DNA from: Cytophagales bacterium
GTDB lineage: Bacteria > Bacteroidota > Bacteroidia > Cytophagales > Spirosomataceae
NCBI GenBank assembly: GCA_013298215.1
Contig: JAAFKE010000009.1
Coordinates: forward strand, 1-64,000
Length of the DNA: 64,000 bases
Direction: 5' to 3'
Shown here: piece after piece, positions 24,849 to 46,405 of the stretch
How the letters are laid out: each line of letters opens with the position of its first letter
Position numbering within the stretch: position 1 is the stretch's first letter
Notes under the pieces: model-generated
Told to the model about the DNA's origin: nothing
The model's database searches: none
The model's input: only the letters and a program-made list of their open reading frames with translations
Translations under genes and position numbers: made by a program

Positions 24849-25796
24849 TTACACTGTTTTTTCGATGATAAAACGCGGACGCGCTTTTACTTCTTCGTAA
24901 ATCTTACCCACGTATTCGCCGATCAGACCGACTGCAACCATGTTCGACCCGCTAAAAAACGTGAGCGGTAGCAGCGTCGAAGTCCAGCCGGGCACTGTTT
25001 CTTTGAAAAAAAAGGCGCTTACAGCGTAGCCCAGAATGAGGAGTGAAATAAAAAAGTTGAACAGTCCAAAATAAAGCACCATCCGCATGGGCGTGGTCGA
25101 AAACGACGTGATGCCGTTCCAGGCGAAGAGCATCATCTTACTGAGCGGGTATTTTGTTTGGCCAGCTTCGCGTTTGAGGCGTTTATAAAACACCTTGTCG
25201 CTCCTAAAACCAATGAGCGGAAACATTCCCCGCAGAAACATATTGGTCTCGCGGTAGTTTTGAAACTCGTGCAGCACGCGGTCGTCGATGAGCCTAAAAT
25301 CGGCGTGGTTAAAAACCACTGGAACGCCCATGTTTTGCATTAAGCCATAAAAAGATTCCGCCGTTTGGCGTTTAAACCACGAGTCGGTCGAGCGGTCGTC
25401 GCGCACACCGTACACAATGCGCGCGCCCTCGCGGTTTTTTAGGAGCATATTTTCAATCGCTCGGATGTCGTCTTGCAGGTCGGCATCGATCGTAATGTAA
25501 CAATCGAATTGCCCCGCGTGGTGTTCTAAGCCCGCGAGCAGTGCGCTTTGGTGGCCAAAATTTCGGGACAGTTTCAGGCCGATCGCATTGGTGTTTTCCT
25601 TACAAATAGTTTCGATCAACGCCCAGGTGCGGTCGCGGCTGCCGTCATCGACGAAGCAAATTTTACTTTCCGAACCGATCAAACCTGCTTGGAGGAGTTC
25701 ACCAAAATAGGCTTGGAGGGTTTGGTTGGTTTTTTGTAGAATCTCTTCCTCGTTGTAACAGGGCAAGACAAGCAACAAATGGGCGGGTTGGTTCAT
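24849..25796 (-). CDS. Family 2 glycosyltransferase (polyprenyl-phosphate type)
   Basis: 315 residues. A GT-A domain (1-230) has LVLPCYNEEEIL, CFVDDGSRDRTW and TIDADLQDD with the metal-binding acidic residues, plus RNFGHQSALLAGLEH. Two C-terminal membrane helices (about 230-295) follow. This is the layout of DPM1/GtrB-like enzymes that load a sugar from UDP or GDP onto polyprenyl phosphate. First gene of the GT2-DUF6056-MBOAT operon, with a good -7 element 22 nt upstream. Confidence 0.92.
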   Translation of the reverse strand: MNQPAHLLLVLPCYNEEEILQKTNQTLQAYFGELLQAGLIGSESKICFVDDGSRDRTWALIETICKENTNAIGLKLSRNFGHQSALLAGLEHHAGQFDCYITIDADLQDDIRAIENMLLKNREGARIVYGVRDDRSTDSWFKRQTAESFYGLMQNMGVPVVFNHADFRLIDDRVLHEFQNYRETNMFLRGMFPLIGFRSDKVFYKRLKREAGQTKYPLSKMMLFAWNGITSFSTTPMRMVLYFGLFNFFISLLILGYAVSAFFFKETVPGWTSTLLPLTFFSGSNMVAVGLIGEYVGKIYEEVKARPRFIIEKTV

Positions 25797-25818
25797 TTAA
25801 ACAAATAAATTTTGAACT

Positions 25819-25826
25819 CAAAAGTA
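25819..25826 (-). promoter_or_regulatory. -7 promoter element (TACTTTTG) for the GT2-DUF6056-MBOAT operon
   Basis: TACTTTTG on the minus strand, ending 22 nt before the GT2 start at 25796. It lies back to back with the candidate RNA transcribed the other way. Confidence 0.55.
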
Positions 25827-25904
25827 CCGAAAATGGTCAATTTCTGCAAACCTTTTTACGTCACCAATCGTTATATAGTCTGAAACACAACTTTTTACGT
25901 TTTC

Positions 25905-26173
25905 ATAAACAAACCACATGGCTGTATTCTACACGGCAACCGCAGGATCAGCTGGTGGGCGCAGTGGTACAATAAAGTTGCTCGGCGGAGCGTTAAATGG
26001 TCAGTAAACTGGTGGTGAAAGCACCTACGCATGACAAAACGAAGGTAGAAAATATTGAAAATACAGTCCACAGCGTGTGCCCCTATTCTAAGGAAACGTT
26101 GAGGCAACGATAATGGTAGAGGTTTAGGTAGTGTAGTAATCAGCCGCATTCGTTTGAAGGCGGCTGATTTTTT
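25905..26173 (+). ncRNA. Candidate structured non-coding RNA, family not recognised
   Basis: The 380-bp gap at 25797-26177 has no convincing protein frame but ends in a plus-strand terminator whose only possible transcript comes from this gap. CTGTAT-TCTAC (25922-25932) pairs with GTAGA and ATACAG (26045-26066, with an A-rich bulge). Inside are hairpins CGG-CAA-CCG, GCTC-GGCG-GAGC, CAG-TAAA-CTG and GGTG-GTGAAAG-CACC; a second domain has CGTT-GAGGC-AACG inside a CCTATT/AATGG stem. A weak -7 (TACGTTTT, 25896-25903) would start it near 25908. It lacks the hallmark sequences of RNase P RNA, tmRNA and SRP RNA. A 6S-like RNA or a new family is possible. Confidence 0.5.
26138..26173 (+). terminator. 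Terminator of the candidate RNA
   Basis: AATCAGCCGC (26138-26147) pairs perfectly with GCGGCTGATT (26160-26169), followed by a T run to 26173. On the minus strand there is no T run, so it is oriented for plus-strand transcription. Confidence 0.85.
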
Positions 26174-26177
26174 ATTG

Positions 26178-26888
26178 TCAAACCGCTGGAGCCACCGCCA
26201 CCATGGTATACGTGTCCTTCACTTCGCTGGGGTGGACCCGCAAAACATTTGCCAGCACCAGCAAAATCAACGTTTTAGAGGCCATACTACGCGGAATATC
26301 GGCCACGTTCGCAAAGTCATCCACCGTTATACTTTTGTTTTGGTCGAGGTGCTGCATGAGTTTTTTCTCCTTTTCGCTATACGTAAACCGAACGTTACGC
26401 TGCTTACGCCGCCCGCGCAAAATTTCCCGTACTTCGCGGCTTGCCTGCACCGATTTGTCGGCCACGCGCACGTAGGTTCGTTTGGTGGCAACTGGCACCG
26501 CCAAAGCTATTTTTGGGGAAGCGCCACCCATCGAAGCCGCAGGTTCGAGTTCTGACAGCACAGCGTGCGGCCCCGCCTGGCTTTTGGGAATGTTAAAAAC
26601 CAGCACCTCGCGCTCGTCTTCAACTTGCACGCGCTCCATAGAATAATGTATAGTTGGCACGCAGAGTTTTTCGATGGCACGCGTTAGGATGTACTCGTCT
26701 TCGTCGGGGTATTTTAGCCCTTTGATGCTTTTATCATCGCCCACGCCGATCAGCAGGTAGCCTCCGTCTGAGTTGGCAAAGGCCACAATCTCGCGCACAA
26801 TCTTGTCGGGGTGGTTGGTTTTGAGCTTAAACTCCAAGTTTTTGCCTTCACCGTGTCGCACCCATTCTTTCAGCATACGATAATCCAT
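26178..26888 (-). CDS. AlbA_2 (Schlafen-like) domain protein
   Basis: 236 residues from the ATG at 26888 (the frame is open to 27002, but homology starts at MDYRMLKEWVRHGEGKNLEF). The AlbA_2 nucleic-acid/ATP-binding domain covers about 8-130: EGKNLEFK, then IVAFANSDGGYLLIGVGDD. The C terminus (about 185-236, YSEKEKKLMQHL to VHPSEVKDTY) looks like a winged helix. Proteins of this type are often annotated as ATP-binding transcriptional regulators; the target is unknown. It stands alone between the candidate RNA and yidC. Confidence 0.82.
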   Translation of the reverse strand: MDYRMLKEWVRHGEGKNLEFKLKTNHPDKIVREIVAFANSDGGYLLIGVGDDKSIKGLKYPDEDEYILTRAIEKLCVPTIHYSMERVQVEDEREVLVFNIPKSQAGPHAVLSELEPAASMGGASPKIALAVPVATKRTYVRVADKSVQASREVREILRGRRKQRNVRFTYSEKEKKLMQHLDQNKSITVDDFANVADIPRSMASKTLILLVLANVLRVHPSEVKDTYTMVAVAPAV

Positions 26889-27037
26889 TGAGACTGCCAG
26901 TTGATGTTCGTTACAAATTACGCGCAAAGATGGCTTTACGCAAGAAAAATATTCTTTTTTGTTCGGCCACCCATTCAAAGCCCCCAACGGCTCGGGCCTC
27001 ATTATGTGGTGGGCGGTCAGAAAACGTATTTTACAAA

Positions 27038-45870: not shown

Positions 45871-45908
45871 ACCAAAGCCGCTCAATGCTAACATTGAGCG
45901 GCTTTGGT
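45871..45908. terminator. 17-bp perfect hairpin terminator
   Basis: ACCAAAGCCGCTCAATG (45871-45887) pairs perfectly with 45892-45908 around CTAA. The T run is weak, but the stem separates the hydrolase gene from the convergent transposase fragment and could serve both. Confidence 0.75.
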
Positions 45909-45913
45909 ATTTA

Positions 45914-46405
45914 TTACTTGAATCTACCATGTACGCGGCGGTTTGTGCTATAATGCTCCCCAAAATAAATGAACTCTTGGGCTGATTTTACTAAGTCTTG
46001 CAAATGACTAAACGATACTTGGACACAGCTTAAGGGGGGCAAATAGTAATGCCCTTTTTGAGCAATGGTGCAACGATTACCCCAACTGCCTAATTTAGTG
46101 TCACCCACAAATAACAAACCTTGGCTGTCGAGTGTCTTTTCCACCCGTGCTATCATCGGTAAATACAATACATCATCCGAAGCAGCTCCATTACACACCT
46201 CAACACATAAGGGCATCCCAAAACTACCTATCGTACTAAGCATGATTTTCAATTGGGCTAAATCCTTACGCCGATGCTTGGCATAACCCATTGAAAACAA
46301 ATCACTTGGGTCTTTGAAGCTCTGGGCAATGGTGGCATCATACTTGGCCCTTGCCATTTTCCACGAACGACACTGCCACGAATGGCTTCTCCGAACGGCA
46401 GTTGC
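45914..46405 (-). pseudogene. IS1634-type transposase fragment
   Basis: An open frame of about 147 residues from 46357, extendable to a stop at 46408. GYAKHRRKDLAQLKIMLSTI, SFGMPLCVEVCNG and LFVGDTKLGSWGNR match the central DDE part of IS1634-family transposases (the family is normally over 500 residues), with the second Asp in VGDTK. Both ends are missing. No inverted repeats were found. A decayed remnant next to the IS5-type element. Confidence 0.75.

Follow-up and report, generated by a model that had tools for sequence, protein, structure and literature searches.

A candidate small RNA from the 3' end of a decayed ohr gene in the Runella group

The stretch of DNA analyzed here (the window, 64,000 nucleotides) contains a gap at 25797–26177 that is bordered by two minus-strand genes, one for a GT2 glycosyltransferase and the other for an AlbA_2 protein. 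The gap ends in a plus-strand terminator with a 10-bp stem and a run of six T residues; this arrangement was reported by the initial annotation and is borne out by the Pfam assignments of both neighbors (Table 1). The initial annotation held that there is no plus-strand gene upstream of this terminator in the gap, and proposed that the interior may be a structured RNA.

Table 1. Features of the gap and its surroundings, in window coordinates
Feature	Position	Strand	Basis
GT2 glycosyltransferase gene	24849–25796	−	PF00535
Possible degenerate promoter copy, AAACCTTTT-N13-GTTATA at 25848–25875	25840–25883	+	weight matrix, weak
ohr pseudogene, 5' piece, residues 1–26	25918–26007 (match 25918–25995)	+	tblastn, 29 full-length Ohr, 46–55% identity, E 3e-7 to 6e-6
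ohr pseudogene, middle piece, residues 92/95–123, ending in the CPYSK signature	25997/26006–26092	+	tblastn, 62% identity to G219 Ohr, E 6e-12
ohr pseudogene, 3' end, GNVEATIMVEV and TAG stop	26092–26127	+	82% identity to G219 C-terminus, E 0.001
Invariant 20-base motif ATGGTAGAGGTTTAGGTAGT	26113–26132	+	identical at 15/15 Runella-group loci
Intrinsic terminator, 10-bp stem AATCAGCCGC (26138–26147) / GCGGCTGATT (26160–26169), T6 at 26168–26173	26138–26173	+	sequence
AlbA_2 (Schlafen-type) gene, convergent, constant neighbor of the motif	26178–27002	−	PF04326, 78.2 bits

The decayed ohr gene

The plus strand of the gap is, with near certainty, a decayed ohr gene, encoding a peroxiredoxin of the Ohr/OsmC type, together with its own terminator, and a plus-strand gene therefore does lie upstream. 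A tblastn search with 29 full-length Ohr proteins and an Ohr fragment from the genome G219 places three collinear pieces on the gap, the best of them with 42.4 bits versus at most 22.3 bits in 200 shuffled gaps. When compared to the Ohr family (TIGR03561; PF02566), the similarity extends along the protein as in a pseudogene, with the gap frames covering the first residues, the CPYSK cysteine signature and the C-terminus. Unlike a working ohr gene, the gap copy has no intact frame: the frame of the 5' piece ends at a TAA codon (26005–26007), the first and last pieces share one frame while the middle piece is in another, and ~65 codons have been deleted ahead of the middle piece.

The G219 fragment (L022/L028) is recognized as OsmC by Pfam (PF02566, 1.7e-13) and as Ohr by NCBIfam (TIGR03561, 93.4 bits with a cut-off of 88.85), and its frame is open as far as the contig reaches. 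In a search with this fragment, the C-terminal part of the protein, against 222 genomes of the family, the sole match in the window's genome at E ≤ 1e-5 is 25937–26095, with two TAA codons inside. Since there is no second match at this threshold, the genome has probably lost Ohr.

The conserved 3' end

The terminator has a loop of 12 nt and was missed by a simple scan, probably because that scan is limited to loops of 8; a second scan found four terminators in the window, this one among them. In an alignment of 14 distinct rows from 15 genomes, 98.4% of the cells of the stem are paired and 8 of the 13 pairs display two-sided changes, the cells with such changes numbering 30 versus 8.9 in shuffles. 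Four of five covariation measures were reached by none of 500 shuffles; the fifth, which counts further pair types, is at chance level (15 versus 15.6). The terminator is more than a chance hairpin, since compensatory changes preserve its stem across the 15 genomes.

Shortly upstream of the terminator lies a motif of 20 bases, which does not vary at any of its 20 positions among 15 genomes, the flanks having diverged, and which is probably single-stranded. When the gap was compared by BLAST with 99 genomes, three genomes other than the window's own matched, and these at the 3' end only. The pattern ATAATGGTAGAGGTTTAGGTAGT with up to three mismatches is present in 23 of the 222 family genomes, and the exact core ATGGTAGAGGTTTAGGTAGT followed by a terminator in 15, namely all 13 genomes of the group g31 (Runella), the only genome of g7 and the only genome of g1, which is that of the window. 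The other eight pattern matches are not followed by a terminator and were dropped. An exact scan of a species-genome collection yielded 11 records (nine Runella, one Spirosomataceae MAG and one Cytophagia MAG), several of which overlap with g31, G006 and G219, and a search of 390 genomes of the order found no exact motif outside the family, together with seven matches containing two or three mismatches.

A covariance model of the motif and the terminator (R1), built from the 15 loci themselves, scores these loci at 76.6–92.7 bits and everything else at 39.8 bits or less; on the window, whose sequence is part of the R1 alignment, it matches 26108–26182 with 76.6 bits. Matches at E ≤ 0.01 are found in 62 of the 222 genomes. 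Fifteen of the weak ones were inspected, of which eight represent one sibling locus, described below, and the rest look unrelated or doubtful. The window also contains an ORF of 147 amino acids (45914–46357, minus strand), which resembles a transposase fragment, followed by a hairpin at ~45874–45905 that R1 matches weakly (20.2 bits).

A sequence-related AlbA_2 relative adjoins the motif at all 15 loci, and the AlbA_2 protein of the window is only 62–63% identical to that of G006 or G030. On the other side, both relatives with ORFs listed (L002 and L003) have a plus-strand amino-acid permease, backed by Pfam in L002, and not a GT2 gene. Among 30 AlbA_2 loci of the family and the order, compared by tblastn, three belong to motif carriers and have the motif, and the 27 others contain no motif within five substitutions in the 400 bases downstream (286 in one).

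A general pre-terminator motif was also considered and rejected. GGTTTAG occurs within 40 bases upstream of 1 of 60 terminators in 400 kb of G215, so the motif is not a general terminator feature, and no such motif appears in the k-mer lists. In the window's genome, AGGTTTAGG occurs 28 times versus 13 times for the reversed control; by eye, three or four of these sites precede a terminator-like hairpin, and seven of the 28 satisfy a permissive energy criterion, which admits coding sites as well.

At all 13 loci without ohr (12 in g31 and the one in g7), the motif is preceded at 23–69 bases by a promoter-like element, [GC]AACAnnTT-N13-GTTWT[AT], a pattern that was written after the loci had been seen. 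Its strict form, with GG, is present in 4 of the 15 genomes and is confined there to the motif locus. A weight matrix derived from the sites of 9 of the 13 relatives gives low scores to the regions upstream of ohr at 29 loci (best 6.5), and the possible copy in the window ranks 35 among ~128,000 window positions on both strands, which is weak, in a region chosen beforehand. In G219, the promoter, if present, would fall past the end of the contig. The simple scan of the region lists no sigma-70-type promoter. ECF-type promoters have a GAAC-like −35 box and a GTT- or CGT-like −10 box at a fixed spacing, and the element resembles them. An ECF-type motif with a CGT box at −10 is described for Flavobacterium psychrophilum in PMC9723704.

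The motif is connected to ohr through its start, which coincides with the end of the gene. In the G219 ohr gene and in the window, the sequence there reads ATA ATG GTA GAG GTT TAG, that is I-M-V-E-V-stop, and the motif overlaps the ohr stop codon, after which comes the terminator of the gene; ATAATGGTAGAGGTTTAG is the native end of ohr as well. In a comparison of 30 Ohr proteins, KGN is followed in every one by exactly nine residues, including the one that ends in the motif, and the nine residues of G219 fit the common I/V-x-V-x-V ending. An ohr frame precedes the motif at 2 of the 15 loci (G219 and, decayed, the window) and at none of the remaining 13. The ohr ends at 28 g5 loci and one g8 locus do not contain the motif, nor is there an AlbA_2 gene within ~1.5 kb of ohr at these loci.

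Coding does not explain the conservation of the motif, since in G222 and G223 the codon preceding its ATG is a stop. A trace of the codons ahead of the motif (GDIESS or SDIESS; shuffle p 0.006–0.033, uncorrected) survives at three closely related loci among the 12 of g31 that lack ohr. The other nine and G006 have no ohr trace beyond the motif.

The candidate small RNA

The existence in the Runella group of a candidate small RNA from the 3' end of ohr is well supported by the conservation of this end in the genomes. We consider it rather probable that the end of the ohr mRNA became such an RNA and outlived the gene, and that the window represents a decayed intermediate. The 3' end of the mRNA, comprising the last codons, the stop and the terminator, would act as an sRNA in the Runella group. 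In most Runella, where the ohr frame is gone, the promoter-like element would drive a short stand-alone RNA, roughly 70–125 nt long if transcription starts ~10 bases after the GTT. G222 and G223 have 23 bases between the element and the motif, so that the RNA would there consist of little beyond the motif and the terminator. The gap in the window combines a dead ohr and perhaps a worn promoter with an intact 3' end and terminator, and the same 3' end would be embedded in a transcript of roughly 290 bases, since the broken ohr frame still lies between the promoter copy and the motif. We infer transcription, the start sites and the precedence of ohr from the genomes, and the motif is likewise hypothesized to act through base-pairing to other RNAs or through a protein that it binds.

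Many base-pairing sRNAs have a conserved stretch located immediately upstream of a terminator, and bacterial sRNAs derived from 3' UTRs are known, for example CpxQ of enterobacteria. The candidate is similar to these in being a conserved mRNA end that spans the stop codon and finishes in the gene's own terminator. It differs in that the parent gene has decayed or disappeared at 14 of the 15 loci and in that the candidate RNA has a putative promoter of its own. Another point of comparison is Rfp18 of F. psychrophilum, an intergenic sRNA that is expressed and is said in PMC9723704 to fold strongly. Like Rfp18, the candidate would be a non-coding RNA conserved within a group of Bacteroidota; judging by that description, the two are set apart by the conserved part, which is probably single-stranded in the candidate. 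A full-text search of one literature collection retrieved no paper containing both “Runella” and “sRNA”.

The search for pairing partners found no conserved target. The 15-base complement ACCTAAACCTCTACC, with up to one mismatch, matches in the 15 genomes each genome's own motif and five scattered sites. The 10-base complement TACCTAAACC was followed in five genomes at 81 of the 82 listed sites (one G222 site was left out), and a site was scored as a target when an ATG that begins a frame of at least 80 codons followed it within 60 bases. Such positions account for 10 of 18 sites in G215, 12 of 24 in G030, 0 of 11 in G217, 4 of 14 in G216 and 4 of 14 in G222, where the totals include nine motif and sibling loci, not scored as targets, and some scored sites are inside longer ORFs. 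The same sites on the other strand give 1, 1, 1, 3 and 3 in G215, G030, G217, G216 and G222, respectively, and the background for single subwords before start codons is 8.5–33%. For G215, 10 of 16 sites (minus the two motif loci) versus 25% corresponds to a binomial p of 0.0016; G030 is a close relative, and G217, G216 and G222 do not repeat the result.

Two further observations concern these sites. Several apparently orthologous genes of G215 and G030 have TACCTAAACC just ahead of the start codon, for example L224/L283, L236/L280 and L248/L289. On both strands together, TACCTAAACC is rarer than its reversed control (18 versus 58 in G215, 11 versus 50 in G217, 14 versus 49 in G216, 15 versus 55 in G222 and 24 versus 82 in G030).

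The motif has a relative elsewhere in g31 genomes. A sibling motif, GTAGAG[AT]AAAGGTTTAGGT, is located directly before a terminator at another locus in 9 of the 13 g31 genomes (L211–L213, L215–L219, L223), and at all five loci with ORFs listed (L201–L203, L205, L206) a gene encoding a protein of ~460 amino acids lies upstream of it; the one such protein tested has no Pfam match. A target or a binding protein could be common to two unlinked transcripts that end in this way. Such sharing leads to a variant of the mechanism, compatible with the ohr history, in which the 3' end motif is common to several transcripts and is bound by one protein instead of base-pairing. The second locus argues for this variant and the promoter-like element that the motif has to itself at 13 loci argues against it; on balance we hold it to be possible but rather unlikely. 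In the window's own genome, TTAGAGGTTTAGGG is found before a terminator at L187 (G000:C20, ~11595), 3' of a 150-amino-acid ORF that resembles a hotdog-type thioesterase.

It is somewhat less likely still that the locus contains nothing but a pseudogene and a terminator, the motif being kept for a reason related to DNA or to termination and not as part of a regulatory RNA. The interior of the window locus, which is a pseudogene devoid of extra structure, and the failure of the target search are in line with this explanation. However, a mere remnant would hardly be identical at 20 of 20 positions in 15 genomes amid diverging flanks, the promoter-like element is kept as well, and the scarcity of GGTTTAG before G215 terminators speaks against a role in termination at large.

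Order of events and the nature of the gap

In the AlbA_2 tree, which was rooted at the midpoint and in which 2 of 12 inner branches are fully supported, G219, with its ohr, is placed inside g31 (93/91) and the window outside, both on long branches and with unsure placement. With this topology, an order in which ohr came first requires at least two losses. The order that we favor and infer from these data is that ohr is ancestral, that its frame was lost at least twice, and that the promoter and the 3' end were kept. It is a tentative proposal, plausible but short of probable, that living genomes thereby preserve a stepwise conversion of ohr into an sRNA gene: the open frame in G219, the decayed frame with a faint promoter in the window, and in Runella the promoter, motif and terminator alone, under strong selection.

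The reverse order assumes an older sRNA, with ohr entering between the promoter and the motif in some lineages and the motif becoming its C-terminus. The 13 of 15 loci that have no ohr, and the unsure position of G219 inside Runella in the AlbA_2 tree, could be accounted for in this way, but the motif is in frame at exactly the native length of Ohr, and it would take either an exchange or two insertions of ohr at one and the same place. We therefore regard such an entry as improbable, and favor the ancestral ohr.

The remaining proposal is that of the initial annotation, a large structured RNA. Folding of 25908–26105, that is without the terminator, gives a z of +0.53, and 142 of 200 shuffles equal or surpass it; when the terminator is included, z is −1.37, and 16 of 200 shuffles do so. 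The closing helix suggested between 25922–25932 and 26045–26066 is not found in the minimum-energy structures, where its 5' bases pair locally. Rfam has no family over the gap in the window at gathering scores, and none for 25790–26200 at E up to 5, with 6S RNA among the families that do not match; in nine relatives there are four sub-threshold matches, none of them over the motif. The gap interior is seen elsewhere only as ohr. By the checks named in the initial annotation, the body of the gap falls short, and its 3' end stands up as regards conservation and covariation. The plus-strand unit ending in a covarying terminator thus stands, with its last ~70 bases (26108–26176) conserved, and the large structured body does not. 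Although the plus-strand terminator is real, a 6S-like RNA or a new large family can be dismissed, since what was proposed as its body consists of pseudogene sequence, has a stability no higher than that of shuffles and no Rfam match, and does not occur at the 13 loci that have retained the 3' end but not ohr.

A decayed gene whose terminator is still functional in form can therefore mimic a structured RNA. The origins of sRNAs are hard to observe directly. Here the gene is apparently intact in one genome, decayed in another and gone in the others, with the motif at its 3' end unchanged in every base, which would make the route from an mRNA tail to a stand-alone sRNA testable, and the locus adds a candidate sRNA to the Spirosomataceae.
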